A stretch of DNA of 64,000 bases. Origin: Buxus sempervirens. Taxonomy: Eukaryota; Streptophyta; Magnoliopsida; Buxales; Buxaceae. Within the stretch, counting starts at the first letter, position 1; each line of letters begins with the position of its first letter. The stretch is from the NCBI GenBank assembly GCA_947561395.2, contig OX387184.1, positions 26,526,766 through 26,590,765 of the forward strand, given 5' to 3'. Below are positions 7,935 through 42,558 of this stretch, one piece after another. A program made the translations under genes and the position numbers. Under the pieces are notes generated by a model. The model was not told the DNA's origin, searched no databases, and saw only the letters and a list, made by a program, of their open reading frames with translations.

Positions 7935-8082
7935 CTTGTATCCGACAACTCAGGTCGGATACAAGCATATCCTTTCATATCCGACAGAAGTTGTTGGATA
8001 TAAGCAGATGTTAATGTATTCTACGACATATATCGGATACATATATGTGCTCTTGTATCCGACCTGATATGTCGGATACAAG
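7935..8082 (+). promoter_or_regulatory. U3 array of four 7-nt-loop hairpins
   Basis: The first hairpin is CTTGTATCCGAC, loop AACTCAG, GTCGGATACAAG (7935-7965), with a perfect 12-bp stem. The second (7978-8000) has TATCCGAC / GTTGGATA and a 7-nt loop. The third, near 8016-8042, is degenerate. The fourth (8052-8082) repeats the perfect 12-bp stem with a different loop, CTGATAT. The array ends about 165 bp before the TATA box. The function is unknown: transcription-factor half-sites or RNA structure are both possible. Confidence 0.8.
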
Positions 8083-8245
8083 CTTTTTGCTCAAAATTAG
8101 GGTTTTCCAAGAGTTTTCACTTTTTACCGTCATATCCTTCATTAAAGGAGTGGAAATCTAGGAAATAGCCTTAGGGTTAAGGTTGGTGGACTCTGGACAT
8201 CATTTTGTGTCTACCATCAGGCAAACCCTAACCCTAGCGTTTACC

Positions 8246-8256
8246 TATAAATAGGA
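8246..8256 (+). promoter_or_regulatory. TATA box of the 5' LTR
   Basis: CTATAAATAGG lies downstream of the hairpin array and upstream of the presumed R region. The equivalent block is kept in the solo LTR at about 22001-22013. Confidence 0.65.
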
Positions 8257-10310
8257 GGCTCCTCCTTGAGCAAATGGCCAATAAGTTGGAGATTGAAGAG
8301 CTCCGAGTGAAGAAGGGAACCACTGCCGCATTGCTTCCAGGCACCGAGGTAAGCCTAAACCCATATTTATTTTTCTGTCTTTACATTCTAGAGTTAGTTC
8401 TTTTCTTCTACCCTTCTGTAGAATAAGGCCTACTCTGTGTGTATGCAAACCCTTCCTCTACTCAAAGTACCTCAAGACTCCCCCTAGCCGTAAAACGTGA
8501 AGGCGGGATCTAGGGGAAACGAGACTGAGGATTGATCCTTAATACTAGAACCTTGTTGAATAACCCTTTGATTCTATGAAAACCGTTTCATATTCAAAGT
8601 ACCCCAAGATTATCTCGAAGAACCGTTAAACGGGGAGAGAGAACTAAGGGAAACGAGAATGGAGCGGAACCCTAGGTTATTTTAGAACCCCATTTGATTG
8701 ATATGAATGCATGCTATATGTTGTTATGTTATTGAAGAAATGATTTTTACACATACACATATAGCACTTGCTTTTGTCGGAATCGGCTTATATTTCGGAT
8801 TTATTGCATTCATTGTGATAGATCTGGAATGAATAGCCCCAAACAATTCTGGGATATTTCTTAATGGTTTTCAACATGATTTCAAACAAGTATTTAAGAC
8901 CTCTAGGTCTAACCTCTCGGTTTCGGGCATTTTTGCTCAATTTTGGGGTTTTTTGGCATATTCTTTCCAATCGGAGAGAATGGTGAGCCAAACTTGTGCC
9001 CCATTTCTTCCTAGAGGTTCTTCAATATCTTTTTAAAATGATTTTGATTTATCTTGCACGGATTCCACACACCTTATCACCGTTTTGAGTTGATTTTCTT
9101 TAAAAGGGCTTAACTTGACAGCAGCTGTACCCCAACTTCGGACACTCGTAACTTCATCGTCTGGATGAATTTTGGAGTAATTCCAAAGCCATGGGAAAGG
9201 TGAGGCTGTCTAGTTTATTCCTGAAAATTTTCATTAATTTTTATCAAGTGGATTTTTGACACCTATCAGTCGAAGTTGATAGGTCAATTCAGGCCAGATT
9301 GCGGAACCTGTCACTTCGACTGAGCGCCATGTGTTCGTTTTAAGTCCGATTCGAGTGATTTTTGTTTCTGTGTTTTCCTTTGGAAGTCTAATTTCAACTC
9401 CAGTTGATTTCATAATTTTTTGACTCTATTTGTGTCGTTGGTAACAGATTTACTCAGAACTGCTCAACAACACTTTTTTGGGTTAATCTGTGATCCTTGG
9501 GGCTTGTTCAAGAGGTCACCCAAGGCACATCCGAATGAATTTTTGTATGAAGCTAGTTTCATTGGAAATATGGCCATACATACTTCATTCACACCAAATT
9601 TCATGGATTTATATGGAGCTGATTTTTCTAAATGATTTTCCAAACTTGCCCACTTGTCACTTTTAACTATCTCCAGTAGCATATTTCAAAAGAGAATAAC
9701 TCCCAGGATTTTAACCGGAATTAATTGAAAATTTGCATGAGTCTTCTATTTATCATAATCTTTCAAATGGATTTGGGTTGATTCAATTTAAATTAGATTT
9801 GAATGATTTCAAGACAAATGGTTCTTGCTTTTACCGAATTTTCCGGATTTGACTCAACTTGGTTTTGTGCAATTTTTTGCTTTGATTTCCATCTATTGGT
9901 GATATTCCAGAAGTGATATTGACATAAAAGAGGATCTGGAATTCATTTGGATTTCTCATGTGGAAATATCACATATTTGTGTAATCCTTTTTCAAGGTTT
10001 TTGATGATTTTAGCAAGCTTCATTATTTTTTTTAGCATGAACAACACTTGGCAACCACCTTGTGTGGGTGAATGGGGGTGCCTAACACCTTCCCCCGTTC
10101 ATAATCTAATCCCCTTACCCATCTCTGGATTTTATTTTCAAGTAGAGTTATTTTTACTCTAATATTTAACTTTTAGCTCTTTTTGCTTATTTTGAATCTT
10201 TTGGTGTCCATTTACACCCCAAAAATTGAATGGTGGCGACTCTCCCATTTTCGTTGAGCCCGTGTGATGACGGAGGGAATCATCTCGGTGATTTTTCCAT
10301 GTCTCACAAC

Positions 10311-12063: not shown

Positions 12064-12204
12064 TTAACCGACAACTCAGGTCGGTTAAACAGTGTTTCTT
12101 TATTATCCGATATATGTCGTCGGTTACAAGAGCTTATGCATGTATCCAATCATTTTGATCGGATACAATAAGACATAGCTTTGGCAGACATATCGTGTCG
12201 GATA
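12064..12204 (+). promoter_or_regulatory. Internal array of four 7-nt-loop hairpins
   Basis: The first (12064-12088) has the perfect 9-bp stem TTAACCGAC / GTCGGTTAA and loop AACTCAG, identical to the loop of the first LTR hairpin although the outer stem differs. The others (12104-12126, 12142-12166, 12182-12204) keep the 7-nt loop with imperfect stems. A TATA-like sequence follows near 12392, upstream of gag, so an internal promoter is conceivable. Confidence 0.65.
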
Positions 12205-12510
12205 CAGCCCGAAAATTAGCAAATTGATTTTCCAGCCCAATTCTTTTGAAAATAAAATGCCTAAAACATTGTGAATAATCCTTAGGCGCCCCAAAGAGAA
12301 TATAAAAATGTTTCAAAAAAAAAAGAAAAAAAAAGAAAAAAAATCTTTTTTGGATTTAACCTAATCTACCCTTTCCACAAGCTTAAAGAAGATATATAAA
12401 AAGGGAACCAAGGTGTCATATTTCTTGATACCAACTCACCTCAAACATTTTTCAATCAAACTTTTGAACTTGAAACTGAGAAAATTCAGCAAATAATAAA
12501 AATAAAAATA

Positions 12511-12900: not shown

Positions 12901-12995
12901 AAAAAATGGAAAAATATAGAAAAAAAAAACAAATAAATCCAGACTTGTGTTCACCTAACTCACTTATCTACATTTATAGGTGTGACTAGGATTAA

Positions 12996-14153
12996 ATGGG
13001 AGTTGACACGTTTCTTTGTGTTTTCCTTCTCCAGGTACACTTACTTGCAATCATTGCTCCCGTGACCAGATCCAAAGCTCGAGCAATAAATACTGAAGAG
13101 AACCAAGCCCAAGCTACTGTCCCTGCCCAGGACTTTGCTCAGCTGCAAAAGCAGGTGGCCGGACTAGCCAAGATGCTGGGAGACTTACTGGCGGCTCAGG
13201 CCCAACAGGCCCAAAACCAAGCCTCAACTTCCAATCAAGCACCACCACCTCAAGCTTACATTCCACCTCCTACTCAACCCATGCCTGAACCCATTTCTGA
13301 GCCAGTCCCTGAACCTATTCTGATCAGGGAAAACACTGTGGAGTATGAGAAGGAAATGGAAAAAGAAAAAGCCAGGGAGGAGACGGAAAAGAAACTCCTG
13401 CACAAGATAGAAAGGATCCAGGAAGAACTCAAGGAGGTGAAGGGGGGAAATAGTTATGGAGGCACCACCTTTGACGACCTGTGCATATACCCGGATGCAT
13501 GCCTACCGGCCAAGTTCAAGTGCCCAGACTTTGACAAATATGATGGCACGGGTTGCTCAATGAGCCACTTGAAACTATACTGCGGGGCCCTATGCCAATT
13601 TGGCTGGGATAACGGCATTCTGATCCAACTCTTCCAGAGGAGTTTAACAGGGTTGGCTCTAAGGTGGTTTGCCACCGTGGACCATGGCAGGATCAGAAGA
13701 TGGAAGGACTTGGCCGACGCCTTCTTGGACCAGTATAAATTTAACTCGGAGATCGTGCCAAACCGGTACGACATGATGAGAATGAGCAAGTGAAAAGAGG
13801 AGTTTGTAAGGCAGTATGCCAAGAGGTGGAGAGAGGCCGCCTCCCAGGTCAGGCCACCGATGTTGAAGCTTGAGATGATCTCAACCTTTGTAAGCACACT
13901 GGGCCAACCCTTCTATAATCATCTGGTGGGTCAGATTACCACCAATTTTGCAGCCCTGGTGCAGGTGGCAAACCGGATCGAGGAAGGGGTCAGATCAGGA
14001 AAACTTATTGACTACTCTACTTTGACCGGGCAATCTGATTCCTCCGCTTCCCTAGCACAGAAGAAGGGGACTAGGTTTAAGAAGAACGGTGCCAGAAAAG
14101 AAGGAGAAGTAAACCTGGTACATGCTACTCCCTCCAAGAAACCCTCCATGTGA
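12996..14153 (+). pseudogene. gag polyprotein remnant, Ty3/gypsy Tat lineage
   Basis: The frame starts with a Q/A/P-rich region and a predicted coiled coil with many E and K residues (about residues 105-150). It then enters a retrotransposon gag capsid domain: PAKFKCPDFDKYDGTG, a leucine-rich segment, LTGLALRWFATVD, WKDLADAFLDQYKFN. A TGA at 13791-13793 interrupts it, and the same frame continues with EEFVRQYAKRWREAA, the expected next part of the domain, so the stop is a single substitution. The frame closes at 14153 and coding continues in another frame. Gag would form the cytoplasmic particle that packages element RNA. This copy cannot make an intact product. Confidence 0.82.
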
Positions 14154-15307
14154 ACATCTCTGCACCCCAACAGGCCCAGCAGGCCCAGCAGTCATATCAG
14201 ACTCCTCTTAATGTCAATTTCTCCCCCTTCGTGCCTGCAAATCAGAGGAGGACTTTTACCAAGGAAGAGAAGGATGCCTGGATGGCAGCAAGGAGGAGCA
14301 GAGTTTTTACTCCCCTTCCCATGTCTCTCTCCCAACTATTACCGACCCTGTTGAAAGGGGAGTATGTGACCTTGAAGGAGCCCAACCCAAATTCCTCAAA
14401 ATGGAGGAATTTTGATCCAGCAGTCACTTGTGACTATCACATGGGTGCACCGGGGCACTCTACTGACACTTGTTGGATGCTGAAGCATGCTGTCCAGGAT
14501 CTGCTGGATCAGAAGGCCCTGGTTTTTAATACTGCTGCGCCCGCCCCGTCAGGAAATGATATCGGGCAAAACCCTCTGCCTTTCCACAATGGGGCAGGCC
14601 CGTCCAACTCCAACACTGCCATATCTACCAGGAGAAGGGCCTATGACCCATCTCAACTTATAGCACCCGTGGGGACCTCAGTCAAGGTCCATTTCTTCCA
14701 AGAGAAAGAAGAAGAGGAGGTCAATGTTGTCTCCCAAAAAAATGATCATGCTGCTGAGGACATTAGCTCCTCTTTGAACCGGGTATCCTCTCTTATGGCC
14801 CAAATAAACATTGCAAGGCCTCCTTTGGTCTTCAATTGCAGTCCACCCACCTGTTCTCCAGCCAAGCCATCAAAGGCTCCATTGGTCGTCAACCTTGACC
14901 CCACCACTGCTTCCATCACGTCTTCTGTTCCAACAAAATCCAAGCTCCAACCCTTGGTTGTAAACATTCCTGCATCTTACAATGTCCCTAAACCGGCCCA
15001 TACATCCCGGTCAAAACTCCAGCCGTTGGTGGCTAATGTTCCTAAACTAGCCTATTCTGAGGCAGCTGTACCATGGAATTATAGCGAGGGGGTCACGGCT
15101 ACGGTTCCGGTGGTCAGGAACCAGAACCAGGAAGAGGTAAAGCTCATGACGAGGTCAGGGAAATATGTGGAAGGAGCAGAAAAAGAAAAAGAAACAGAAG
15201 TCGAGAGAGAGAAAAAAGAAACAGAAGAAAAAAGAAAATTAAAAGGAAAAACAAAAGTAGGAGAAGACACCCCCAGGGTGCAGAAAATGAGGCATCAGAC
15301 CTCATAA
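14150..15307 (+). pseudogene. gag 3' part with CCHC-like knuckle and linker
   Basis: This frame follows gag after a shift near 14150. It has a Q-rich start, then TKEEKDAWMAARR and a knuckle-like segment with C-x2-H-x5-H-x4-C spacing (CDYHMGAPGHSTDTC), followed by LKHAVQDLLDQ as in Tat-lineage gag proteins. A long low-complexity linker with repeated PLVVN motifs and a K/E-rich tail leads towards the protease. The frame ends at 15307 and the protease is in the third frame, so at least two frameshifts separate gag from protease. Some retroelements use programmed shifts, but with the additional stop codons decay is more likely. Confidence 0.7.
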
Positions 15308-17360: not shown

Positions 17361-17428
17361 GTGTATCCGGCCTTAGTTGCCGGATACACACAAGCTGTAG
17401 GTGATCCGGCCTGAGTTGTCGGATCACC
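17361..17428. promoter_or_regulatory. Two 7-nt-loop hairpins downstream of the LTR TATA box
   Basis: GTGTATCCGGC / GCCGGATACAC (17361-17389) is a perfect 11-bp stem around CTTAGTT. GGTGATCCGGC / GTCGGATCACC (17400-17428) encloses CTGAGTT. They lie in the transcribed part of the minus-strand LTR, about 1.7 kb beyond its TATA box. Confidence 0.7.
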
Positions 17429-19147
17429 ACAGAATTGCATTTTTCGGGGCTTTGCCAATGGGGATGCATTTGAGGGCTTCTTGGGGGCTTTCTACGAGTC
17501 ATGTGGGCCCTTGGGAGGGCCCACACGGGTTCTGTTTTGGGGATGACTCCCACTTGGCTCACTTGGTGGTTTTCTTCAACAAAAGCAAGAGAAGGAGGGC
17601 ATGGGATTGCTGCCCCTCCTTGCTCTCTTTAAAGATTCCAGCAGCATTGTCGGGGCCTTAGCGCCCATCCATTCTCATGGTGTTATGCCACCAAGTAACA
17701 AGTAATTCCAAACCAAGAACCCAAACCTCATACTATACAAGTCAAACATAAAACCAACATACGGTGGAGCATGGAACAGCAACTAGTTAAAAGGGAATAT
17801 CTACTAAAATACAATGATTAAGCATTGTTAAGTAGGCTAAGGATGCATGGGGGTTTGTGAGGAGTAACCATCTTCATGCATGGGTTTGGAGGTGCTGCTG
17901 TTGGCTCCCAACAGCAACTCGCATGAGCCACAACAGTGGGTACCGAGGTAGGGAATCATGCTCACATGGATCTTATATACGCAAGCATGCATTTAAAGCA
18001 AATAAACGACCAAGTAAAACATGTAACCACCGATAAGAGCTAACGGGAAACCTGCTGTAGGTAGGGCAGCAACTTAAAATGAAAGGAGAAGGGTTTTAAG
18101 CATGCTATCAGGGCTGGACATGGCCTAAATTCTGTAGGAGAAGGGGCCTTCATGCTTGGGGTGATTTGGAGTTTCTAAGTCTGCTGGGACAGCAATTACT
18201 AAGGGGTATTGAGGTCATAACCATGGTGGGAGGGGGGGGGGGGTGCATCTCAAGACGCAAAAACAGCAAACTAAAAGAAACCAAGTAGGCATGCTAAAGC
18301 CCAAAACAGCAGGTGGTAGGCTGGGGGAAACATGCATGTTAACACGAAGTAATACACTGAATAACAAAAGATGGACATGCATTCATCCCTAAGCCCAACA
18401 GCAAACCCCAAAACAGTAGCATATTGTAACTAAAACCAAAGAACAAACAGCAAAGGGAGGTATGGCAACGGCAAAAACACCCACAGAAAATATAAGAAAG
18501 AATGGGAAAAGAGAAAAAAGAAAATCAAGAAGGGATGTGGGGGGATACTTAGGGATACATTAGGTGAAGGAGGGAGGAACACGCTCCTCAAAAAAAATGC
18601 TTAGAATAAGCCCAAGAAGAGCGGCTACAAGGCATTAAAATGTGTAAACCACGGGCTTTCATGCTCCCTAAACTAAACTACGTGGAACTTTTGCTTGTAG
18701 TAGCTTCATGCCATAAAAAGAAAATCAAGTGCATGTAGAAAATAGCATGAAGACAAGCCCATGCCAAGTAGGAAAGCCAAAGTAAGCATGTTAGCAGAAA
18801 AATCCAAATTTAACATATGAGGAATACAACATGACGTGGAGCCTTACCTGGAGGTTCTTGTGCTTGGTAGTAGGGTGGAGACACCCTTTTGGAAGCCGGA
18901 CAGCAGTTGGAGCTTGCCTCTCCTTGCACCAACAGCAACTACCCACCTTCTTGTTGGGTTGTAAGTGGAGATGGAGGAAAAGGAGGATAAGAATGGCTTG
19001 GGTGGTGTGGAGAGGTGATGGAGGGCTAAAGGGAGTTGAAGATGGAAGGTTTCGGATGAGAAAAAGTGGGGGAAGAAAGCTGGAAACTAGCAAAAGAAGC
19101 CAACCCCCGGCCAGAGGTGCTGTTGTGCTTTTATAGGCAATTTTAAT

Positions 19148-19353
19148 GTATCCGGCATTAAATGCCGGATACACTACATGTCCTTTGTATCAGGCATAAA
19201 ATGCCGGATACAAACAAAATTATTTCAAAAATTTAATGCTGCCGCGAATTTGTCGGGCAATCGGCGCGAATCTCGCCAAGCAAATCTTTCTATCCGACAT
19301 TTGAGTCCGGATATGAAGAGGGGCAAGTGTATCTGGCATATTTGGTCGGATAC
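19148..19353. promoter_or_regulatory. U3 array of four 7-nt-loop hairpins in LTR copy a
   Basis: The hairpins are GTATCCGGC / GCCGGATAC (19148-19172, loop ATTAAAT), GTATCAGGC / GCCGGATAC (19187-19211), TATCCGAC / TCCGGATA (19291-19313) and GTATCTGGC / GTCGGATAC (19329-19353). All have a loop of 7 nt. They sit upstream of the minus-strand TATA box, in the same relative place as in the other LTRs. Confidence 0.75.
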
Positions 19354-19941
19354 AAATCGAAAAATTACGGATTTGCCCCTCGACTTGACCGATTCGACCG
19401 ATTTGACACTTTTGAGCAATTACGGATTGGTCCCTGCGAATTTTGGTTTAGTTCCTGAGATTTTTAGTGACTTTTGAATATTTAAGATTTAGTCCCAGAG
19501 ATATTTTGCTGCGTTGGCTGCCACGTGTGCAGTTCCTGCGCCACGTGTGCAGTTTCCGGTTTTGCTGCTCGGAAACTTCAACAGCTCATATCTCCTTTAT
19601 CCGAACTCCGATTTGAGCAAACTCAATTGCATTAGACTCGTATCGGAGCCCTATATCCAATGACATAGGGCTAAGCACTTGGCACAGGGTTCGAGGAAAA
19701 GTCAACTTTCGGCTCTCCCTCAAGTTTGACCGGCCCACCGAACCTTCATCCGGACTCCGATTCCAGCAAACTCAGTTGCGTTGGACTCGTGTCGAGATTC
19801 TCTATCCAATGAGATAAAACAAGGTAGCCAATTATCACTTGATCAAAAAGTCAACTTTTGTCCCCTTAGGGTTTGACTTTTTAGTTAGGGTTTGCATTTC
19901 CGGCTCTTCTGAGAGCGCAAAAATGACGTGCTTACAGCGTG

Positions 19942-21589: not shown

Positions 21590-21594
21590 GGTTA

Positions 21595-23241
21595 TGTAGA
21601 CACCCCAAATTGTACTACAAAATGAGAAAATAATTGAAAATATTAATTGGGATTTGAAACAGGTAAAAAATGCATAAAATTCAATCATTTAAGCAGTGCC
21701 CGTATTGTACCTACGGGCTGGTCGTGCCCGAATTTTATATACGGACACGCAGTGCCCGTAATAAAAATGCGGACACCACTTGCCCGCAATATATTTACAG
21801 GCGCAGGAGATTTGTGCGAATTTGATCCTTGCTCGATTTCTGAGCCTTATCTTCAGTCCAATATCTCTTTAGATGAGCAAATTATCTCTTTTATTCGTTC
21901 GAATTATCCTTGTTGGCCATGGATGTGCATTATCCCTATTTTTCAATCCAATCTGGTGGATCATGGTATATCCCTCTGGACCAGCCTTACCCCTGGGTTT
22001 GCCTATAAATAGAGGTGAGATCCTTAAGCAAAGGGCCACGAAATTTTGAAGTCTAAGGAGCTCCAAGTGAAGAAAGGAATCTCTGCTGCTCTGCTTGCTC
22101 AATCCAGGTAAGTCTCTTTTCTCTTTTATTTTCTGTTTTCAATTCTAGAAGTAATAGGATCTTCTCCTTTTTTCTAGAATAAGGCATTTGATTGTGTTTG
22201 TATACCCAAACCTATCTTCAAGTACCTCAAGAATTCTCTCTAGCCGTAAAACGTGAAGAGAGAGCTAGGGGAAAAGAGAACAGGTGGATCCGTAGGGTAG
22301 ACCCCCATGTGCTCTAATCTGTGAGATATGACTGCTTTGAATATCCTGATCATGTTTTAATGGTTTTATTTTGAATCTAAATGAATCCTATGAATCCATG
22401 ATGTTTATAGCATGAGATCCCCACTTTTTTTCTAAAATTTGGATTTTTCACACTTTTGCACCTACAGCACTGTTTTCGTGATTTTTGTGATATTAGGCTA
22501 AGATCCTGGATCTATCATGATCTATATGATAGATTTGGATTCAGAAGCTTGAAAGTAACTTCTAGGGTTTCATGATATGGTTTTGAATCCTTTTTCACTT
22601 TTGAGAGAAGACCCTATGGGTCTAAGTTCTCCCCTTTTGATGTTTTTCATCAACGTGGGTATTTTTGGTTTTGATTTCTTGATTTAATGTGAAATTTGGG
22701 CTATATCTATGTCCTAGACTGTTCAAGTTCAATTCTGCAATATTTTATAAAAATCATATTTTTCTAGATTTCTAGAATTTAACTTGAAGCCAGATTTTTG
22801 AAGTTTTCACTTTATTTTGGTTTTATTTGATTTTATCTCAATTTTATTTTAATCATGAAACCCTAGGAATGGTATGATCATATTTGAAATTTCTGAATCA
22901 ATCAGGCTATTCGTATGAAAAAAAACCATACACTTTTGTCTTTTGTGTTTTTTTATGATTTTTGTAGCAAGCCTTCTTTATTTTAACATGAACAATACCT
23001 GGCAACCACCTTGTGTGGATGAATAGGGGTGCCTAACACCTTCCCATGTTCATAACCTAATCCCCTTACCCATTTCTGGTTGTTTTTTTTAGGGTTATTT
23101 TTACCCTAAATTTGCCTTTTTGTGCTTATTTGAGATTTTGGTGTCCATTCACACCTAAACAAAATAGTGGCGACTTTTTGTTTTTAACCAATCCCGTGTG
23201 ATGATCAGGAAGTCATTGAATTGATTTTTCCATGTCTCACA
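21595..23241 (+). mobile_element. Solo LTR of the 7835-type family
   Basis: It starts TGTAGACACCCCAAATTG, ends ATGTCTCACA and is flanked by a perfect 5-bp duplication, GGTTA (21590-21594 and 23242-23246). It shares the TATA region (CTATAAATAGAGG), the splice-donor-like AGGTAAG and the GGTGCCTAACACCTTCCC block with the LTR at 7835-10308. It has its own duplication, so it is an independent insertion and not the missing 3' LTR of that element. Confidence 0.9.
21696..21818 (+). promoter_or_regulatory. U3 array of four 7-nt-loop inverted repeats
   Basis: The clearest is GCCCGTA, loop TTGTACC, TACGGGC (21698-21718). Three more follow with imperfect GTGCCCG.../CGGACAC-type arms and the same loop length. 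The homologous LTR at 7835 has a different stem sequence (TATCCGAC) in the corresponding position. Confidence 0.6.
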
Positions 23242-23532
23242 GGTTATGCTACGTAACTCGGATCCAGGGCGTTACAAATGGTATCAGAGACTGCCCCAAC
23301 CGGAAAGTGTGGGGGTTCGGCCCAACGCGAGGACGCGTTGTCCCATGGAGGGGAGTATGTGGCATCTTGGCTGTCTGAGTGGGCGGCTGTGATGTGGGTG
23401 GGGTGAGAGACCTGGGCGAGCTACCACAGTGGTGAGCTACCAGGCAAGGATGTGCATATGGTTGGGATCCCACAACGCTCGGGGATGCTATAAGTAGTCT
23501 TAAGACCCCCAACTAAGCAAGAGGCCTTTTAA

Positions 23533-23638
23533 GGAGCAACACGGGACTAAATCCCCTGGGAACCCTAAAGTTAAGCGTGCTCAGGTGGGAGCACTGCTAG
23601 GATGGGTGACCCTTGGGAAGTTTTCTCGTGTTATCCTT
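23533..23638 (+). repeat. 5S rRNA-like segment in the first Cassandra LTR
   Basis: AGTTAAGCGTGCT (near 23569) matches the A box of plant 5S genes. AGGATGGGTGACC (23599-23611) matches the C box, in the normal order and spacing. The 5' part and several stem positions differ from functional plant 5S RNA, so this is an LTR promoter remnant and not an rRNA gene. Confidence 0.8.
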
Positions 23639-23874
23639 AAAAACAAATCCGTGAGGGCCCGTGGGCCTAGAGCGGACAATATCTTGCTGGCTATGGGTCT
23701 GGGGTGTTACAAATATGTGGCATCCTGGCTGTCTGAGTGGGCGGGGTGAGAGACCTGAGAGAGCTACCACAGTGGTGAGCTACCAAGCAGGGATGTGCAT
23801 ATGGTTGGTATCCCACAACGCTCGGGGATGCTATAAGTAGTCTTAAGACCCCCAACTAAGCAAGAGGCCTTTTA

Positions 23875-23981
23875 AGGAGCAACACGGGACTAAATCCCCT
23901 GGGAACCCTAAAGTTAAGCGTGCTCGGGTGGGAGCACTGCTAGGATGGGTGACCCTTGGGAAGTTTTCTGGTGTTATCCTT
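23875..23981 (+). repeat. 5S rRNA-like segment in the second Cassandra LTR
   Basis: It has the same A-box and C-box motifs as the first LTR, with a few substitutions (GCTCGGGTG instead of GCTCAGGTG, which is closer to plant 5S). It is probably the same kind of RNA polymerase III-type internal promoter. Confidence 0.8.
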
Positions 23982-24054
23982 GAAAAGAAATCCATGAGGG
24001 CCCGTGGGCCCAAAGCGGACAATATCTTGCTGGTTGTGGGTCTGGGGCGTTACA

Positions 24055-25325: not shown

Positions 25326-25598
25326 GCGACCATACTTCATATGCGGTCGCTTCGCAACCGCATTTGAAGTGCGGTCGATTTTTCAGCCACCGCTCGCGCG
25401 AGCCAATCAGCGCAAACAACGCGCGAAAAGTAACCGCACTGTTGCATGGTTCGTCAGTCTATGCCTGCGCGAGTTTGTCCCCTAATCATTACTGAAAAGA
25501 CAGGGCCAAAACCGCACATACCCTGCGGTTTTGACCAAACCGTACAGTATGTGCGGTTACTGTTCATTTTCGACCAAACCGCACTGAGTATGCGGTTT
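25326..25598 (+). promoter_or_regulatory. U3 array of five 7-nt-loop hairpins in LTR copy b
   Basis: The hairpins are GCGACCATA / TGCGGTCGC (25326-25350), GCAACCGCA / TGCGGTCGA (25354-25378, loop TTTGAAG), AAAACCGCA / TGCGGTTTT (25508-25532, perfect 9 bp), AAACCGTA / TGCGGTTA (25537-25559) and AAACCGCA / TGCGGTTT (25576-25598). Every loop is 7 nt. The array ends 13 bp before the TATA box. Confidence 0.8.
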
Positions 25599-27403
25599 TA
25601 TCCCAGTTTTCTATAAAAGCAAAATCCGAACATGGGACAGGGGTTGGCTTCTTCTGGCTGATCTCCACTGCTTCTCCCCCATTGCCCTTGATCCGAAATC
25701 CTTCTTTTTTTGCCCTCCTTGCCTCCCAAGCCACCCAAACAACCTCCTAAGCCCATTCTACCCTTACTTCCTCTCATCTTCTTCACTCCCACCCAAGAAG
25801 GAAGGGGAGGAGTTGCTACTGCTGCTGGAGAAAGGTGATCCAACACCTTTCTTGGCTTCAAGGGAGTCTCTACACTGCACAAGGGTTCCTAAAACCCCAA
25901 GGTATTACTCCCCATTACATTTTGTGTTACATATATGAAAATGAATGCATTTCATGATGTTTCATGAGTTGGTTCCTCCCATGCTCCAAATAAGTTTTCA
26001 AAGTGGTTTGTATGTGTGATTGCTCTCGTTTTCATGACTTGGAATCTCCCATGGCAAGAGGGGAACCACACGCATAGTCCTTGGAGGAGATGAGAGTTCT
26101 TTTATTTACATTTTAGGTCACCTTAGTTGCTGTTTTGGGTGTTCATAATGGTTCTTAAGGGGAGTGTGTTCCCCCATGAATGATCGTCTAATGTAACCCC
26201 ACATAATCCCCCCTCTCTATCCCTTCTTTTAATAATTTTCTTTATCATATTATGACATGCTGCCCCAGTACCTTGTATGCCATGAAATATGCGTGTGCTA
26301 GGTTAGATTTTCTTTCCATCTTAAGATTGCATGCCCCCTTATTTTCCCTTGTACATGCTGATGTCCCATACCATTAACATGACCTCTCATACTAGCTGTT
26401 TTGTCATGTTCTCACCCCCCTGAACCTCCTAGGTTCAGCTTGTTGGCATCACGCATTAGGATTATGGTAAACCCCCCATTATCTTGCTTTGTTGGGATTC
26501 ATTTAAGCACATACATGCATTGTTATTTGCCTATGGATTTTGTGTTCCCTTTGTACCTTGCATGACTTGTCTAATGCGTTTCCAGCATGTTTAGGTTTCA
26601 GTAAGTTAAATGAAAGAGCTTGGTTTGGCCGGATGTTGACTAAGGATCGGCCTATTGGGCCTCCTTATTTCTCCTTCTCTCATAAGAAATGGAGTGGTCA
26701 TCAAGAGAACCGAAATAGGGACACCTAGATCCCTGTTTCACTGGTGGTTGTGACCCAAATAGGATAAGGCACGACCCCAGCCTTCTCCTCCTTTCCTTGA
26801 TTCCAAAAATTCCGAAAGGAGACCAAAATAGGGTTTCCTCCCACTCTCTGAACCACCGTGAGCCCACATAGGGGCCTACATGACTGCTGGAACCAAGGTT
26901 TTGAATTTCGATGCACCTGGGCGTCCCGCCCAGGGCACCGAACGGCATTTCGTCGGCTTGCCGTCGATTCGCCGGAAAACCAATTTTCCTGTGGTTTCTG
27001 GCGAATTGACCGAAATTTCAACAGATACACACAAGTGTGCTTTTTTCCCCCCAAAAAAATGCTAAATTTTACAACAACTCAACAAGCATAAGTTATATAC
27101 TTCAAAATTGCACTTAAATTACCATAAGCATCAATACTATATCTCAGAAATCATGAAAACACAATGTGGCATCACTGGCATGTAAATGTAATGATCGGGC
27201 GGCCTATCGGGGTGATGCCTGTGTTCGCTGTGTTTAAACTTTAAACTTTAAATAAAAAATAACAAAGAGGATCCAAATTTTAAATTAAACTAAAACAACA
27301 ATATATAAAGTAAAAAACATATAATCATACCGTCAAATCAGACATGAAATGAATGACGTGGTGGCTCAAACCCTGATCTCTCGCCAATAAAATGACAGTA
27401 GCG

Positions 27404-30400
27404 CTTCTATCCCATCCGAAATATGTATTCTCTCTTATATGCACGGACATGTTGCTCATACTCCTCCTGTGTCATGTAAGCCATGATACCAACTGGAGGG
27501 AAATCATCATAATAGTAGCACGGCTCTTGCTCTGTTGGTGACGGAGGAGACGGCGCAGGATAACCGGGATGCTCCCCTACTGCTGTAACTCCAATACCAA
27601 TAGGTACAACAGGCATAGGATAATAGCCGTGCGGATATGGATTCACTAGAAAGATCCCAAATGGATCAGATGTCTGCATGTGTGCTCCAGGATATCCGTA
27701 TGATGTACTGTAACTACTACTATCTGATGAATCTGCTGGCCCAAGCTGCTAAGGATAGTAGGCTGGATAGTGTCCCTGGGTCAGTTGTGGTGGATAGTGA
27801 GGTTACTGCTCTCCATAAGAACTCGATGATCCTCCAACATCTAAAGATTCGAAACTCTGTGCCACGGAGGACGAGTCATCGTGCATCCCTGTATGCTGTC
27901 TCTCCTTGCCTTTCCTCCTCTGAAAGGAATATCCCCCACTCTCATCACGATCTCTATCTCTGTGGTCAGTATCCTGTGTGGTATGATGGAAAGCCGCCTC
28001 TCCAGTAAATGGGCTCAACCCCGGGCCACTGGTGCCAACACCACCATAAGGTCCATAACCACCACTAGCACCACCATCTCCATGATCATCATCTGAAGAT
28101 TCGGACTCATCCTCATCATTTGTCTCCCCCTCAATGTCCTCATCAGTCTCCTCCTCCTCCTCCTCCTCCTCTGACAATGAAACATGCCTACGGGCTGGGA
28201 CTGGGGCTGGTGTCGTCTCAGTAGCGGAAGAAGGAACAACTCTGATGAGGTTATCCAATGAGTCTTCGCGAACCTCCCCCCTCTCCTCCTCCATAGCTGC
28301 GTCTACATCGATGCCCAACTCTGCTGCAGCCTGTGATATGACTGGGCTAGGACTACGATCAGGCTAATCCATCTCAACACATCTAACCCACTCTACAAAT
28401 GGATCCTCGTCATCGACTTCATTACTGAATAACAAATCCAAAGGATCCTTCACAGTCGCGCCAGCGGTGCCGTGCTCTATCTCTAACTGCTTCGTCCTCA
28501 GCCTCATGTTATAATGGCAAAAGACCAACTTCTGTAACCTCTGATAAGCTAACCGGTTCCTCTGCTTCGTGTGTATGAGTGCGAACGTACTCCAATTGCA
28601 CTCACAAGCAGAAGAGGATGCTGTCTGAGCCAATATTCGACACGCTAACTTCCTCAGTGTAGGGGCACTTGTGCCATGCATCGCCCACCATTCACCTGGA
28701 TTTACAAATAGAAAATATTAAAATTTATTTAGAAATTAGAAATTTAAAATATTAATATTCATAATCCCTTGTCACTTACACGGCATCATCTTGTTCCTCA
28801 ACACAATCGCCGTAGTCAACCCGAATGAGCCCATCGCATCTCTAAATTGTATCAGCTGGTAGTGGAATAATTTGAAATGGTCAATACTTAATAATTAATA
28901 TAACTATTAAGAAGAAGTGATATCCATAACATAAGTGAAGTTAAATGCTACGGCCCCTACCTCGTTTCCAAAATCCCCAACTGATTCTGAATGGGGGTCC
29001 AACTTCAGGAAAACCTCGTGGACACGAGCGCAGAGATCGTGTTGTGCGCCAAGATTATCCTTATAATGATATTTGGGATTCAAATAATACGTTACATTGA
29101 CGATTACAAGAAAAAACATTAGTACAATAATTAAAATATAATTATAAACATGATTCAACATAAAATGATTCAAATAAAATTTAATTATACCTGCTGCATG
29201 CAAAGGATGACCTAGCGACTTGTACCATCTGTCGTTAACAATCTTCAGTATCCACTAATGTGATTTGGGTGCTGCGGCCTTAATCTGAGCTTTCATCACC
29301 GCCATACACTTATAAATGGATCCTATGGTAGGATAGGAATCTGTGTCAAGTAGCCGCAGTATACGGTATATGGGGTACAATCTAGCAATCAACTCTCGCA
29401 CATGCTCCCAAAAAGTACTGGACAAAACAATGTCCTCTACTCTCCTCCCGGTCTCTTTGTGACTCTGAGCACAACTCGTCCAATCGTCACTGGTAAATAG
29501 AGATCTCAATCCCTGCCTGTGGCTCAGAATACTATCCAATGCAATATAATTCGTACCGAATCTGGTAATCCCCGGCCGAACTATGTCTCCACCACATCTC
29601 TCTCTCATCTTCGCTAGTACAAAATTATGGTTGTACACAAATGTGGTGAGTGCTCGTGCATCCTTCAATGTCGTCAGCACGTGACTTCTCTTGCCAATCT
29701 CCTCTAGCATCAAGTCAGTGCAATGTGCAGCACAGGGCGCCCAATACAGGTTATACCACCTCTGTAATGTCTCGCCGGCTTTCCTGAACGCACTGGCACT
29801 GTCTGTCACAATCTGAACGACGTTCTCAGGGCCAACCTCCTGTACCACGCTCTCTAATAAGCTAGTAATATAGGGCGCATCCTTGATATTGTGTGATGCG
29901 TCAACAGATCTCAAGAACACTGCCTTGTCTCTACAATACACCATGAAATTGATGATAGACAGTTTAGTAGGACCTGTCCATCTATCACACATGATCGTAA
30001 CTCTAAACTGCTCCTAGTGGGGTCGTAGCGATGTAATAAACTCTCTCATCTCTGCCTCCTCCTGATCCAAGTACGTACCCATAATCTCCCGTGGCGTAGG
30101 AGGCAAGACTCCCTGACCCGACTCCTGGATAACATCGACCATGTTCTTGAAATGGGGGCTCACTGCTACATTCACTGGAATGTGATTGAAGATAAAAAAT
30201 TTTGATATAAACTTCCCCATTTTCTCCCTGACAGTGCCCTTGCTCTACACATCCTTCAATTTCTTCTGCTTGGCACTAGATGAACGCCACATACTCGGCT
30301 CCATAGGATAATCGGGCATCCTGGTGCTAGGTCCAGCCCCAGCCCCATGTCTAGAACTAGGAGTAGGAGCATCAACATCAGCTACACCTGCATCTCCTCT

Positions 30401-30929
30401 AGAAGTACCACCCCTGTGAAATCCATGCCTCGCAGCCTCTACCCTCTCAAACTCAGACTGCAACGATGCTTGCACTGAGGCTCTGAATGCTGCCCTCTCT
30501 CTCTCTCTCTGCCATATATTCGGCTGGGTACACCATATCATCATCGTCATCAATATCAGGAGCCACAGAGGGTTGGATAGGCTCTGCCAATCTACGTCTA
30601 ACCTCCTCCCGTGCATGCCTCTTCCCCTCCCTAGCTGCACTCCCTGATGCCAAGTGCTCTTGCATCAGCCTCTTAACCTCTGGAGGGACTTGACGACAGT
30701 TGGCCACGTTACTGTAGCCATGTGCCAAATGCTGCTTCAACCGTGATACTCCACCACCCTTTATGACTTGGTGGCAATAGTTGCAGACCGTCTTATTTCT
30801 GTCTCCCTCGAATCTCGTGCAATGGGCCCAACCAATATCCTGCCTCCTATCACCATCTCTGCCCTCTCCACTACCACTGCCAGATGCCATACTGTCTATC
30901 CGTCTGACTGTCTCTAACAGACTAACCAA
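27404..30929 (-). pseudogene. hAT transposase, decayed, multi-exon
   Basis: In order on the minus strand: a BED-type zinc finger (CTRFEGDRNKTVCNYC...LKQHLA, about 30860-30740); a linker; a DUF659-type catalytic region with IMCDRWTG and IVTDSASAF (about 30220-29255); a segment ending NDRWYKSLGHPLHAAG; short exons including 28855-28780; and a C-terminal hAT dimerisation domain from 28695 (EWWAMHG, then CNWSTFALIHTKQRN). A long acidic and Y/P-rich tail continues in frame to 27404. In-frame stops lie at 30245, 30014, 29255, 28364, 27803 and 27749, and a frameshift at the GA repeat near 30500. The enzyme would cut and paste the element in the nucleus; this copy is inactive. Confidence 0.88.
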
Positions 30930-32571: not shown

Positions 32572-33854
32572 TCTCTTGACCGAAATTTCGGATTTAAAAC
32601 CTTGGCTGGAACACCCTGGAGAGAAGCCGAGCTAAATCCTGAGGCCATTTTGGCCTTTTCTGGATTTTTCGGCCCGAACCGCATACTCAGAGCGATTCGG
32701 GCGAAACCGCACATGTTCTGCTGTTGGGCCTAGTAAGCCCTCATTTTTGCTTCTCTTGGGCCTACGCCCTACTTGGCATTCCCATGGGCCTTCCAACGAT
32801 GCCCATATCAGACCCAGATCACCTAACTAATCCCGATAAAATCAAATAAAGGAACCCACACAACTTTGGTGGTCCCCCTCCAGACCAATAAAATATGCAT
32901 GCTGGCATAGAAGCAGGGTGAGTTTAGAATTGAGTTGACTTGCAAACCAGGAAAACTAATGGGACCCGTCACTCAACGGGGCGGACCGGGGTGTTTACGG
33001 ACTTCCCCGGACCGTAACCGAGCCCTTTCTCAGAATCTCAAGCCGTAGACCAAAATAGATATCCTTAGGGCATCCAGGTGTCTGCCTCCACCCCATCAGG
33101 CAGTGGCGACTCCTTTTTTCCCGTTTTACCCTTTAGGAGGCGCACACACCTTTTTCGTGCACCTTCGCCGGTGCGACCATGCGCACATAGTGAACATAGT
33201 CAACTGTTTATTTTTAACAAGCATTGACAACAACTCCAACTCAAGCCCACATTTGCAGCCTAAAAAATAAGGATTGAATTGTTCGTAAATGACTTTTGCT
33301 AATGAGTGGAGATGGTTGAAAATTTAGGTCTCTGTCTGTAAAGGAAGATGAATGTAAACTTTTGCTTAGTTTCGCAATACCACACTTATATTTAGATGCT
33401 TGAGGCTTGGTTAACTATTGGATAGTAGCAAAGAAATGCAGATCAAGGCTTTATTTGAAGGCAATGTTAGTCATCTCTGTTTTTAGTTATTTTCTTGTAA
33501 TGCCATGTCAATACTTTTGTAATATACAGCCTTTTTCTTTTCCCATTAACATCGCTATATTTTTACGTAATTTTAGGCTATAGAGTTAGTTTCAAGCATC
33601 TTTCACACGAAGATCATCTACGCCTTTGGTTTTTTTCCTATTGCCAATTTTAGGCTATAAAATTTTGGAAAATCACATGTATCATTACGGAGCAAAAGAA
33701 AAATTAATAAAATTAATTGACAAGAAAATTTAGATAGGTTAAAATTAATCTTTTAGGCTTTTTAACTATGGCAAAGGTTAAAATTAATGACATTAATAAT
33801 AATCGGATATACAGATTTAAATAATCAAAAAAATTTAGACTTTATAAAGTCCTT

Positions 33855-34540
33855 TCATGCTTGGTTACAAGTCCACTCATGCATGTTTATAAGTCCACTC
33901 ATGCCTAGTTACAAGTCCTCTCATGCCTAGTTTTACAAGTCCTCTCATGCCTGGTTACAAGTCTACTCATACTTGGTTACAAGTCCTCTCATGCCTGGTT
34001 ACAAGTCCACTCATGTTTGGTTACAAGTCCTCACATGCCTGGTCACAAGTCCACTCATGCCTGGTTACAAGTCCTCTCATGTTTGGTTACAAGTCCTCTC
34101 ATGCCTGGTTACAAGTCCACTCATGCCTGATTACAAGTCCACTCATGCCTTGTTACAATTCCACTCATGCCTGGTTACAAGTCCTCTCATGCCTGGTCAC
34201 AAGTCCACTCATGCCTGATTACAAGTCCTCACATGCTTGGTTACAAGTCCACTCATGCCTGGTTACAAGTCCTCTCATGCCTGGTCACAAGTCCACTCAT
34301 GCCTGATTACAAGTCCTCACATGCCTGGTTACAAGTCCACTCATGCCTGATTACAAGTGCACTCATTCATAGTTACAAGTCCTTTCATGTTTGGTTACAA
34401 GTCCTCTCATGCCTGGTCACAAGTCCTCTCATGCTTGGTGACAAGTCCACTCATGCCTGATTACAAGTCCTCACATGCCTGGTTACAAGTCCACTCATGC
34501 CTAGTTACAAGTCCTCTCATGCCTGGTTACAAGTCCTCAC
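33855..34540. repeat. Array of ~31 tandem 22-bp repeats, left arm of FB1
   Basis: The unit is about TTACAAGTCCACTCATGCC plus TGG, with CCA/CCT variants. The unit is 22 bp, so all three frames stay open for long stretches; the apparent proteins of up to 127 residues are artefacts. The inverted array of about 16 units is at 34745-35110. Confidence 0.9.
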
Positions 34541-34744
34541 ATGTGTAAAGATTTCTCAAAAAAAAAAACCTAAGTATGACGACTTCTACATGGTTTGCGG
34601 CTACTCGAGCGGGAGAACCCAATTTCCATGATGTTTTTACTGATTTCTAGAAGATTTGTGCCCGCTCGAGCATCAAGCCATGATTTAACAAACTCAGAAA
34701 CCCCGAGAGTGAAGATTTTAAAGCGATTTGTGCCCGCTTGAGCG

Positions 34745-35110
34745 TCAAGGCATGCCAGGCATGAGATGACTTGTAACCAGGCATGAGTGGACTCGTAACC
34801 AGGCATGAGAGGACTCGTAACCAGGCATGTGAGGACTTGTAACCAAGCATGAGTGGACTCATAACCAGGCATGAGAGGACTTGTAACAAAGCATGAGAGG
34901 ACTTGTAACCTGGCATGTGAGGACTTGTAACCAGGTATAAGTGGACTTGTAAACAGGCATGAGAGGACTTGTAACCAGGCATGAGTGGACTTGTAACGAA
35001 ACATGAGCATGAGAGGACTTGTAACCAGGCATTTGAGGACTTATAACCAGGCATGAGAGGACTTGTAACCAGGCATGAGTGGACTTGTAACCAAGCATGA
35101 GAGAACTTTA
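34745..35110. repeat. Array of ~16 tandem 22-bp repeats, right arm of FB1
   Basis: This is the inverse of the left array: GGACTTGTAACCAGGCATGAG units. It is about half as long, so the arms have changed copy number since the element formed. Between the arrays (34550-34740) lies a unique centre with two copies of GATTTGTGCCCGCT. Confidence 0.9.
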
Positions 35111-38559: not shown

Positions 38560-40130
38560 TTAAAACATTTTTACCTTTTATTAATTAACTTCTACAATAG
38601 CATGTATTGACTTATACAGCTATAAGGTGACCTGTCCCACTTATTATAATGATTTTCATAATATATATATTGTACTGACTTGTACGACTATTTACAAGTT
38701 ATAAGACTTAATAAAATAACTTGTACCTTCTATTAATTGACTTGTATAAAAATATACACTAACTTGTATGCCTATGGAGATTTTATACATCTATGAGATG
38801 ACTTGTATAATGCTATATACTAACTTATACAGTTATAAGGCGACTTGTACCACTCAACCAAATGACTTGTACCTGTTATCAGTTGACTTGTACAACAATA
38901 TACATTAACTTGTATGCATATAGACTTATATCTCTCTGTTAGATGACTTGTACAATGTTGTGTACTGACTTGTACATTTATGGGACGACCTGTACCACTC
39001 AACCAAATGACTTGTACCTTCTATCAATAGACCTGTACAACAATATACACTAACTTGTATGCTTACAGAGACCTATACATCTCTGTTAGATGACTTGTAT
39101 AATGTTGTGCACTAACTTGTACATTTATAGGGTGACCTGTACCACTCAACCAAATGATTTGTACCTTCTATCAATTGACTTGTACAAAATATATACTGAC
39201 TTGTATGCCTACAAAGACTTATATTTATCTATCAAATAACTTGTACAATTCTATATACTGACTTGTATACTTAAAAGACAATCTGTACTACTCAACCAAA
39301 TGACTTGTAACTTCTATCAATTGATTTGTACATCTTTGTCAGATGACTTGTACAATGCTGTGTACTAATTTGTACATTTATAGGGTGACCTGTACCATTC
39401 AACCAAATAACTTGTATCTTCTATCAATCGACTTGTACAATAATATACAATGACTTGTATGCCTACAAAGACTTATATTTATTTATCAAATGACTTGTAC
39501 AATGTTATATACTGACTTATATATTTATAGAATGACTTGTACAACTCAATTAAATGACTTATACCTTCTATAGATTGACTCGTACAATAATGTACACTAA
39601 CTTATATGCCTATGGAGATTTTATACATCTATGAGATGACTTGTACAATGCTATATATTAACTTGTACAACTATAAGGCGATTTGTACCACTCAACCAAA
39701 TGACTTGTACCTGTTATCAATTGATTTGTACAACAATATACACTAACTTGTATGCCTATATAGACTTATATCTCTTTGTCACATGACTTGTACAATGCTA
39801 TGTACTGACTTATACATTTATAGGACAACCTGTACCACTCAACCAAATGACTTGTACCTTCTATCAATTTACTTGTACAACAATATAACTGACTTGTATG
39901 CCTACAAAGACTTATAGATCTCTGTCAGATGACTTGTACAATGCTGTCTACTAACTTGTACATCGATAAGGCAACCTGTACCAATCAATCAAATGATTTG
40001 TACCTTCTATTAATTGCCTTGTACAACAATATATACTGATTTGTATGCCGATCGAGATTTTATATCTTTCCACCAAATGGCTTGTACAGTACTATGTACT
40101 GACTTTGCAGCTATAAGGTGAACGGGGAAG
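38560..40130. repeat. Higher-order tandem array, left arm of FB2
   Basis: Units of about 24 bp, each with ACTTGTA, are grouped into a higher-order repeat of about 145 bp. For example, GATGACTTGTAC/TAATG recurs near 38798, 38943 and 39089. The array is non-coding. Confidence 0.8.
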
Positions 40131-40156
40131 AGAGAAGGGGAGGAAGGAAATGAGGG

Positions 40157-42558
40157 TGTTAGCACTTGATTTTTGCACCCCAAAAAATGCAGAAAATGAA
40201 AATTTTAATTAAAAAGTCAAACCATGAGGGGGCTGAAATTTGACTTTTTGATTCAAGTGAATTTGGCCATCAAACTTCATCTCATTGAAAAGAGCATTTC
40301 GACACGGTTCCAACGCAACTGAGTTTGCTGGAATTGGGGTCCGGATGAGAAAGTTATGAGCCGGTCAATCTTTTGGGGAGCGATAAGTTGACTCTTTGCT
40401 CGACCCCAATTCAGCTGCCAAACTTGATCCCAGTGGATAGGTGATTCCGAGCCGGTTCCAACGACAGTAAGTTTGCTGAAATCGGACACCGGATGAAGAA
40501 GTTATGGGCAGTTGAAGTTTCAGAAAAACTGCCCATGTGGCAAAAAGGCAGCAAAAAATGAAATAAACCAATAAAATAAATGTATTTATTAAAGGGAATC
40601 TCGTTTTATAATAAAATAATTGGAAAAATCAAACGAAATCTTACAAAAAAATCAAGTTGAATAAAGTTTTGAAATCCAAACATTTTAAAAACGTGCTGGA
40701 CCGTATTTGAAGTACGGGCGAGGCATGCCTGTATTTCAAATACGGGCAAGCTTCTAGAAGGGGACGCGTGTCGCTGTACGGCCGGACACGCGTCCCGTAC
40801 GGCCGATTTTGCGAGATTTGGAAATGTGCGTTTTTGCCCGTATTTGAATTACGGGCAAGGCACGCCTGTACTTGAAGTACGGGCAAGGCATGCCCGTACT
40901 TCAAATACGGGCACGAAAATTTTGCCTATAAATAGAGAGGCCACCCCCCTCATTTGAACAAGCCTTCCCCTTAGGCCGAACCCCTCTCCCTCTTTGCAAT
41001 TAGCCACGGCCAAGCCCTGCCCAATCACCATCACCCCAACACCTAACTCTATTTAATGCCCAAAATACCCCTGTCCCACCAAAATCATGTCTAAACTTCT
41101 CTTTTTCATCCTTTGAATATCAAGAACCCACCAAACCTCTGCCAAAACCACTCCAAGAAATCCCGTAGGACGCGGAAGCGCTGGTCAAATTTTCGGAGGA
41201 CCATAACACCAATCAAACAACTAATTACATTGTAAGTATGTTCTCCTTCTAAATTAAAGTAAATTCTGATTTTATTTTTCTCTTCCTCACTACCTCTTTT
41301 CTCTTTTATGTTATTTCTAACATTGTTTTGAGTGTTGAATAATGAGGAGTTGCATCCAAAAATAGTCATCCCTATGCAAAAAAAAAAGGAGGTGATAACA
41401 AAAGATTATAAAAAATGTCTCAAAAAGAGAAACTTGACCTCGTTTGATCACTATTACGGAATGAAGATTGAAATCCTTTTTGAACATCAAACATACCCTG
41501 TAAATTACCCCTTTCCCATTCCTAAAAATTGATGGTGGACAAATAAGAAGGATTTTGCTTACTCAAAGAACAAAAGAAGGAAAAAGGTGATCATTTGGGC
41601 CAAGAGAAGAAAATGCAATGCATTGAAGGAGCTAGAACCATCGCAGTTATTACAGAAAACTCCCAAGAGGTCACGGAACAGATCCCAAGAAGAATCGGCA
41701 GCAAAAGCGCAGAATAAGCTGCGCCCATAAACTCAGAACGGTCCAGTCAGGACCGTGTTTGCTTCATGGGCAAGGCAAACCGGATTTCGTCTACGGGCGA
41801 CGGTGGACCGTATAGAAAATACGGGCTAATGTAAAAGTAATATAAAAAATGTAATTTTTCGGCCCGGTTGGATCTATTCCAACCCGAACCGACCTGAACT
41901 AGCCCTTCAAACAATTTGGGCTATCTTAAGCCCATCTTTGGACCGTGGGCCCAAATGGGCCCATCAAGACCTCCTTTTGGCCCACATGAGTGGTCCACTT
42001 TTGATTGGCCCAAACCAGGCCCGTTTTCAATAAATGGGCCCAAGGCCACTTGACTCTGGCTAATGGGCCCATTCCAAGCCCATTAAGCCAAAAAAAAAGT
42101 TGTAAATAAATAAAATAACCAAAGGGGTTACCCAATAACCCCACTGGGCCTCAGGCCCAACCATGGCAGCCCACGGGTCTTCCAATGGGACCCGAATCCG
42201 ACCCACTTCACTAAATAAAAAGATAAAATCAAGCTAAAGGGGACCCACACCTCCAGAGGACCCCGACAGACCAAATAAAGCAGCATGCTGGTCTAGGAAG
42301 GGTGAGCTTGACTCAAAAAAACCAGGGAAACCCGAGGGACCCGTCGAACCGACGGGGCGGGCCGGGGTGTCTTAGGGCTTCCCCGGACGTAACCGAGTAC
42401 TTAGCTAGAACTCTGAAAAGCCGCAGACCAGACTTAGACCCGGATAGGGCAAACACCGTGTCTGCCTGCACCTCTCAGGTAGTGGCGACTCCGAAAGTCC
42501 CGAGGCACGCATGAACACCACGTGCGCCCCGTGTGCGATCTAGATTTAGGTGCGCACA
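40157..42558 (+). mobile_element. Solo LTR (copy c), Tat-like family
   Basis: It starts TGTTAGCACTTGATTTTTGC and ends TTTAGGTGCGCACA, with a perfect 5-bp duplication, GAGGG (40152-40156 and 42559-42563). The TATA box CTATAAATAGAG is near 40926. It shares its start, the GAGGGGGC block, the GGGGTGTC...CTTCCCCGGAC region and the TGGCGACTCC near the end with copies a and b. It landed near the centre of FB2. Confidence 0.92.
40701..40912 (+). promoter_or_regulatory. U3 array of five 7-nt-loop hairpins in LTR copy c
   Basis: Stems and loops: CCGTA-TTTGAAG-TACGG (40701-40717), GCCTGTA-TTTCAAA-TACGGGC (40727-40747), GCCCGTA-TTTGAAT-TACGGGC (40836-40856), GCCTGTA-CTTGAAG-TACGGGC (40864-40884), GCCCGTA-CTTCAAA-TACGGGC (40892-40912). 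The last is about 13 bp before the TATA region. Two more with the same geometry occur after it, at 41753-41769 and 41818-41834. Confidence 0.85.

Follow-up and report, generated by a model that had tools for sequence, protein, structure and literature searches.

Analysis of a 64,000-nucleotide window (the whole stretch of DNA studied) of the Buxus sempervirens genome, GenBank assembly GCA_947561395.2, contig OX387184.1, positions 26,526,766 to 26,590,765 of the forward strand, revealed rows of short and precisely spaced inverted repeats in the long terminal repeats (LTRs) of Tat-like retrotransposons and in one leader region. The CCG and CGG triplets of each such repeat, termed here a dyad, lie 14 bp apart (CCG-N11-CGG). 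It is proposed, with a probability of roughly 0.7, that these rows serve on the LTR promoters as cis-regulatory arrays where a dimeric sequence-specific DNA-binding protein docks. The putative protein would bind as a dimer or as a chain of dimers, occupying one pair of half-sites per dyad, and may thereby control LTR transcription, while the half-sites would have been altered in step with a new binding preference of this regulator. The dimeric protein is favoured because of the exact spacing, the helical steps of 28 and 39 bp, the promoter position, and half-sites that are matched along a row while the loops between them stay specific to each unit.

Spacing of the dyads in the window and across the genome

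Across the window, CCG-Nx-CGG pairs peak at x = 11 with 26 cases, against 0–12 for each other x between 0 and 40, and the opposite order, CGG-Nx-CCG, is likewise most frequent at x = 11 (12 cases against 0–10 elsewhere), as the even 14-bp spacing within rows predicts. A filter allowing at most one mismatch in CCG/CGG and demanding paired arms was passed by 30 dyads, 25 within array regions and five outside them (19556, 32679, 42021, 42349 and 54598). The original prediction had claimed more than 25 short inverted repeats, a number that is reached only when decayed units in exact register (for instance 8020, 12185, 21784 and 40866) are counted, the strict filter leaving 25 in arrays. The places it had given were all correct (7942–8059, 12068–12146, 19152–19333 on the minus strand, 21700–21756, 25330–25579 and 40701–40894), and to these were added arrays at 17367–17406 and 41739–41808 as well as a decayed pair at 32679/32707. 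The eight regions that carry arrays (2,950 bp) contain 55 cases of 8-bp arms with six or more pairs flanking a 7-nt gap, as compared to 15.5 ± 4.0 (maximum 29) in 200 shuffles of the same regions. Neighbouring odd gaps of 3, 5, 9, 11 and 13 nt are raised too (42–48 arm pairs each), partly because their centres are shared with the 7-nt-gap pairs. A chance origin is ruled out by these shuffles together with the free-gap genome searches.

Searches of the 676.5-Mb genome were done with the gap left free from 0 to 30 nt, the free gap itself serving as the control for spacing and the reversed-letter pattern as the control for abundance. Arms of the type GCCCGTA..TACGGGC were found at 11,324 places against 89 for the control, and every one of the 50 matches listed had the exact N7 spacing; TATCCG..CGGATA was found at 43,324 places against 575, with exactly N11 in 81 of the 87 matches listed. 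The outward-facing arms TACGGGC..GCCCGTA gave 7,962 places against 121, the gap being N7 in 48 and N6 in two of the 50 matches listed. In 13 stretches that had been picked by location, one consisting almost entirely of N, CCG-Nx-CGG occurred 32 times at x = 11 and 2–16 times at other x, CGG-Nx-CCG was highest at x = 11 and x = 35 (20 each), and steps of 28 or 39 bp were present in five (L012, L014, L016, L018 and L023).

The predicted CCG...CGG core spaced 11 nt apart is thus borne out by the peak in the window and by its near-exclusive occurrence genome-wide for these two arm types. The claim of an invariant 7-nt loop stands for the spacing, which is near-exclusive in the same two types, and has to be amended for the 28-bp rows, in which two 7-bp spacers alternate and the supposed loop is simply one of them. 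The seven spacer bases of the GCCCGTA type are often symmetric themselves (all three pairs in 20 and two pairs in 22 of the 50 matches listed), and therefore there is no true loop in this type.

Row layout and distance to the TATA box

Two layouts were observed, in which successive dyads are either 28 bp or 39 bp apart. The 28-bp rows have half-sites at 14-bp intervals, CCG taking turns with CGG both within and between dyads, while the gap between dyads in the 39-bp rows is 11 bp longer, near one helical turn. Steps between neighbours below 200 bp, among the matches listed, were 39 bp in 39 of 50 cases for TATCCG..CGGATA, the others being 78 (6), 77 (2), 38 (2) and 103 bp (1); for the GCCCGTA type (n = 22) they were 28 (9), 56 (4), 110 (4), 111 (2), 100 (2) and 109 bp (1). 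The half-sites combine the CCG core with family-specific flanks, as in ATCCGAC, ATCCGGC, ATCCGGT, GCCCGTA and AACCGCA.

Distance to the TATA box was measured in 21 pieces containing both an array and a TATA box, rows with no TATA box in the piece being left out. All 21 arrays lie upstream of the box, and in nine the last 9-bp arm ends 11–13 bp before it, which agrees with the earlier statement that some arrays end only 13 bp before the TATA box. The near-TATA pieces span five arm types (GCCCGTA, AACCGCA, TATCCGGC, TATCCGGT and TATCCGAC), and this class may share one promoter by descent. The last arm lies 156–167 bp before the box in ten further pieces, 40 bp before it in L033, and 227 bp before it in the LTR starting at 21595 (TATA at 22004, measured from the last counted arm).

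A separate observation concerns the loops. Of 166 dyads, 18 have ACTCA/TGAGT within or beside the loop; they belong to several arm types, that at window position 19294 being in another phase, and the loop of one unit is often ACTCAG (or CTGAGT) regardless of arm type (7942, 12068, 17406, 25579, 32679 and several loci). This recurrent loop may represent common ancestry or a second binding word.

Concerted change of half-sites along rows

Nine U3 (unique 3′ region) pieces of one LTR group, pairwise 67–95% identical and alignable through their 39-bp rows, were compared unit by unit. Their inner half-site bases are mainly AC, GC or GT, and the identity of this dinucleotide within a row was 0.745, against 0.506 upon unit-by-unit shuffling (maximum 0.655; 0/5000). 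For the 7-base loops, identity was 0.709 between rows at the equivalent unit and 0.368 within a row, the latter no higher than that between different units of different rows (0.37). A larger comparison, of 13 rows, gave an agreement of 0.76 within and 0.46 between rows for half-sites, and of 0.39 and 0.61, respectively, for loops. Row L006 (eight AC) and row L026 (five GT, three GA) differ at 16/16 inner, 5/56 outer-arm, 9/28 loop and 21/42 linker positions. Mixed rows also occur, with AC and GC together in L004, L008 and L010 (L004 also with AT), and GC together with GT, GA or AT in L024 and L030.

Tandem copying would take the loops along, yet the loops stay unit-specific, and therefore the 39-bp rows tested were not freshly amplified. 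Fresh tandem amplification is ruled out for these rows by loops that are kept per unit between copies, and the possibility that the arrays come from one amplified repeat without independent change fails for this class. The half-sites of a row thus appear, from these alignments, to be matched either through selection or through some process that affects a few bases at a time.

Weighing of the alternative explanations

Three options had been offered by the original prediction, namely half-sites that are paired to receive a DNA-binding dimer, a series of RNA hairpins and a source of small RNA, and the first is the best fit in view of the spacing, the steps, the distance to the TATA box that is fixed in one class of promoters, the concerted half-sites and the lack of a G-U excess. 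Several findings nevertheless weigh against it, and part of them would be expected if the rows acted as RNA or DNA hairpins that feed small-RNA production or aid the element RNA. The arms pair strongly, and positions 40825–40925 fold at −56.7 kcal/mol as compared to −26.5 ± 3.3 for shuffled sequence (z −9.2). Among the 47 matches listed, the two arms agree above independence at inner position 7 (42 against 33.1 expected) and inner position 8 (28 against 17.8), and pairing of RNA arms would also produce such agreement. In maize Sireviruses, the parts of LTRs that abound in palindromes are reported to be hotspots of small RNA (PMC5311732, PMC10760457). Hairpins, however, need no invariant 7-nt gap, no 28/39-bp steps and no fixed distance to the TATA box, the arms mismatch at inner position 8 in 19 of those 47 matches, and among 71 unique dyads the mismatches on the transcribed strand were not more often G-U than A-C. 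Mismatches on the sense strand are in fact A-C more often than G-U (37 against 19; p 0.022), which would suit an antisense hairpin; an A-C excess on the sense strand is a G-U excess on the antisense transcript, and therefore small-RNA roles could coexist with protein binding. The G-U test speaks against sense hairpins and is compatible with antisense ones. As a whole, hairpins are considered rather unlikely and less likely than a dimeric regulator.

The remaining points against docking arrays concern scope and base composition. The genome searches cover a single genome, with the listed matches all early on one contig (C1), and the lineage evidence for Tat-like elements is weak. The less specific arms ACCG..CGGT lack an N11 dominance (N11 9 times and N1 14 times in the first 100 matches listed, within the first 1 Mb of C1), and ACCG-N{0,30}-CGGT is rarer than its reversed control (100,535 against 265,048 places), as is ACCG-N10-CGGT alone (1,667 against 14,778 genome-wide). 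A general CCG-N11-CGG excess is rejected on these counts for one less specific arm pair, and therefore the geometry belongs to these rows and not to CCG/CGG pairs in general. The test of concerted change covers the 39-bp class only, its nine rows stand for few lineages so that 0/5000 is no true probability, and conservation of the outer arms may be overstated since most rows came to light by a search pattern in which the outer bases of one or more units were fixed. Moreover, most of the differences among AC, GC and GT are transitions, a kind of change that methylated cytosines readily undergo, although the GA half-sites and the kept CCG fit such transitions less well. That the rows are a passive tandem repeat, made of slippage copies of one palindrome, is held to be very improbable. 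Positions 40836–40913 were scored as a 28-bp tandem repeat, and two of nine rows compared show a loop identity of 0.67 along the row, but in the 39-bp rows the loops are far less alike within a row (0.368) than between copies (0.709) while the half-sites change together.

If a dimeric protein reads the rows, it could be supplied by the host or by the elements. A host factor reading CGG triplets as a dimer, for instance a LOB-domain (LBD/AS2) protein captured by the elements, is put forward tentatively. LTR palindromes with a CGG-CCG core and element-specific flanks lie upstream of the TATA box in Copia Sireviruses (PMC2829016), and a triplet common to two unrelated superfamilies points to a host-supplied factor; LOB proteins are described as binding GCGGCG, with dimerization mattering for the discrimination of palindromes (PMC10118128). 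GCGGCG is, however, absent from the frequent half-sites, literature searches on LOB/LBD spacing brought no useful result, and a conserved host factor alone would leave the flank differences between element groups unexplained. Among other plant and fungal binding words, ARF auxin-response sites are inverted pairs of TGTCGG, and they were ruled out since the GCCCGTA, AACCGCA and ATCCGGC/GGT types are without GTCGG. Gal4-like zinc clusters, a fungal family, show an equal triplet spacing in one orientation and were set aside as a curiosity only.

An element-encoded anti-silencing or activator protein, similar to VANC of VANDAL transposons and coevolving with the half-sites, is regarded as unlikely, though the half-sites do differ in concert between sub-groups. 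Retand-type elements are reported to carry antisense open reading frames (ORFs) that encode a TRP28 domain, of which it is said that it "probably can bind DNA" (PMC11963269), and VANC targets are arrays evolving together (PMC5735166). A genome search for PF04195 (TRP28) gave no matches, a result of little weight as the control matched nowhere either. The narrower proposal, that Tat-type elements encode their own dimeric activator or anti-silencer and that sub-families switched the half-site word (AC, GC, GT, TA, CA) with the protein, would amount to a parallel of VANC among retrotransposons and is more doubtful still. The presence of the CGG triplet in Copia Sireviruses as well speaks for a host protein, and the switches between sub-groups speak for an element protein.

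Comparison with known systems

No published account of this geometry in Gypsy/Tat LTRs was found in the open-licence literature, as covered by titles and the beginnings of abstracts. Retand elements, used below for comparison, we take to be a related lineage counted within Tat. The earlier statement that no named motif has this geometry thus holds for the exact geometry in the literature searched, while the same kind of thing has been published for Copia Sireviruses (PMC2829016). The following likenesses and differences refer to excerpts of the cited papers.

The repeated motifs (RM boxes) of Sireviruses (Ty1/copia) are of the form CGG-N4..6-CCG by our own reading of Table 3, one of the 13 being without the triplets, and ENV-bearing Sireviruses have a further RM cluster upstream of ENV (PMC2829016). 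The present rows resemble them in being palindromes of high copy number that have a CGG/CCG core between flanks specific to the element and that cluster in LTRs upstream of the TATA box, and differ by the CCG-N11-CGG arrangement (CGG-N11-CCG between dyads), the even 28/39-bp steps, the Tat-like hosts and an occurrence also in the downstream part of the LTR or in the leader. The palindromes of the maize Sirevirus small-RNA hotspots are likewise a hairpin-capable regulatory cluster in the LTR, differing in spacing and lineage.

The VANC target arrays of VANDAL are also arrays of short motifs in non-coding parts of transposons, specific to sub-families and changing together (PMC5735166). VANC21 motifs, by contrast, have one orientation and change through the formation of tandem repeats (PMC5735166), whereas the rows here are alternating inverted pairs with exact spacing, whose change left the unit-specific loops in place; VANC is an element-encoded protein, whereas such a protein is hypothetical for the present rows. 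Retand elements share the possible element-encoded DNA-binding protein (antisense TRP28 ORFs), although their tandem repeats lie between pol and the 3′ LTR, and the term "inverted repeat" is absent from the main text of that paper (PMC11963269). Within the excerpts compared, the nearest described thing is the Sirevirus box and the nearest described behaviour is that of VANC targets, neither having this spacing or layout.

Element identity and features of the window

The ORF at 12996–13793 has a Retrotrans_gag match of 20.2 bits, below the cut-off of 24.1, and that at 14150–15307 has no Pfam match and is 25% like a Vicia villosa protein which itself has a weak gag match. The LTRs are about 2.4 kb long (7835–10308 and 40157–42558), and TGGCGACTCCGCTGGGGA at 10311, just past the first of them, is presumably the primer-binding site. 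The sub-cut-off gag matches, the LTR length and this presumed site weakly suggest Tat-like elements, and by our own reading the coding piece beside the row looks Gypsy/Tat rather than Copia. The features are collected in Table 1.

Table 1. Rows of dyads and associated features, in window coordinates (positions in brackets are those of the dyads).
Feature	Position	Strand	Remarks
LTR	7835..10308	+	Begins TGTAGACATCC, ends CTCACA; TATA box 8246; assigned from sequence
39-bp row, four dyads (CCG at 7942, 7981, 8020 decayed, 8059)	7935..8082	+	Arms TATCCGAC; distance from last 9-bp arm to TATA 166 bp
Second 39-bp row (12068, 12107, 12146, 12185 decayed)	12064..12210	+	Between LTR and gag-like ORF at 12996
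Gag-like ORFs	12996..15307	+	Weak Retrotrans_gag match in 12996–13793
Two dyads 39 bp apart (17367, 17406)	17361..17434	-	Downstream part of minus-strand LTR (about 16.33–19.94 kb)
Four dyads (19152, 19191, 19294, 19333)	19148..19357	-	Last arm 12 bp before TATA (19135–19130, minus)
28-bp row (21700, 21728, 21756, 21784 decayed)	21693..21808	+	LTR starting 21595; arms GCCCGTA
Row (25330, 25358, 25512, 25540, 25579)	25326..25600	+	LTR starting 24955; ACCGCA arms, the last one 12 bp before TATA 25612
Decayed ACCGCA-type dyads 28 bp apart (32679, 32707)	32675..32730	+	
Solo LTR	40157..42558	+	5-bp target-site duplication GAGGG at 40152–40156 and 42559–42563
28-bp rows (40701, 40729; 40838, 40866 decayed, 40894)	40697..40914	+	Arms GCCCGTA; last arm 12 bp before TATA 40927
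Second row of the solo LTR 40157..42558	41739..41829	+	CGG-N11-CCG at 41739; CCG-N11-CGG at 41780 and 41808

The solo LTR sits between tandem-repeat blocks at 38.7–40.1 kb and 42.6–43.9 kb that match in opposite orientation. Elsewhere in the window, a 22-bp tandem repeat of about 32 copies occupies 33847–34543, and 34755–35108 reads as its inverted version (about 16 copies). Pieces resembling a hAT transposase (DUF659 and BED zinc finger) lie on the minus strand at 29255–30929, and STICHEL-like gene pieces at 50704–52845 and 59052–59762, the nearest named relative of the first being from Tetracentron sinense (70%). A 343-bp unit repeated about twice at 23394–24054 is 5S-rDNA-like in appearance; all Rfam families stayed below their gathering scores in 23200–24200, and the 5S-rRNA reading was dropped.

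Significance

Overall, the rows are real, abundant, well ordered and evolving unusually, and their co-changing sites suggest that a paired protein reads them to control the elements. With evenly spaced sites numbering in the tens of thousands, this one genome offers a natural record of a changing binding word, in which the ancestry of each site is preserved by the spacers and the half-sites change together. If the protein is found, this record would permit a direct test of coevolution between transposon and regulator. If it proves to be a host factor, it could explain the CGG palindromes in the LTRs of two unrelated retrotransposon superfamilies as well as the timing of element activation.

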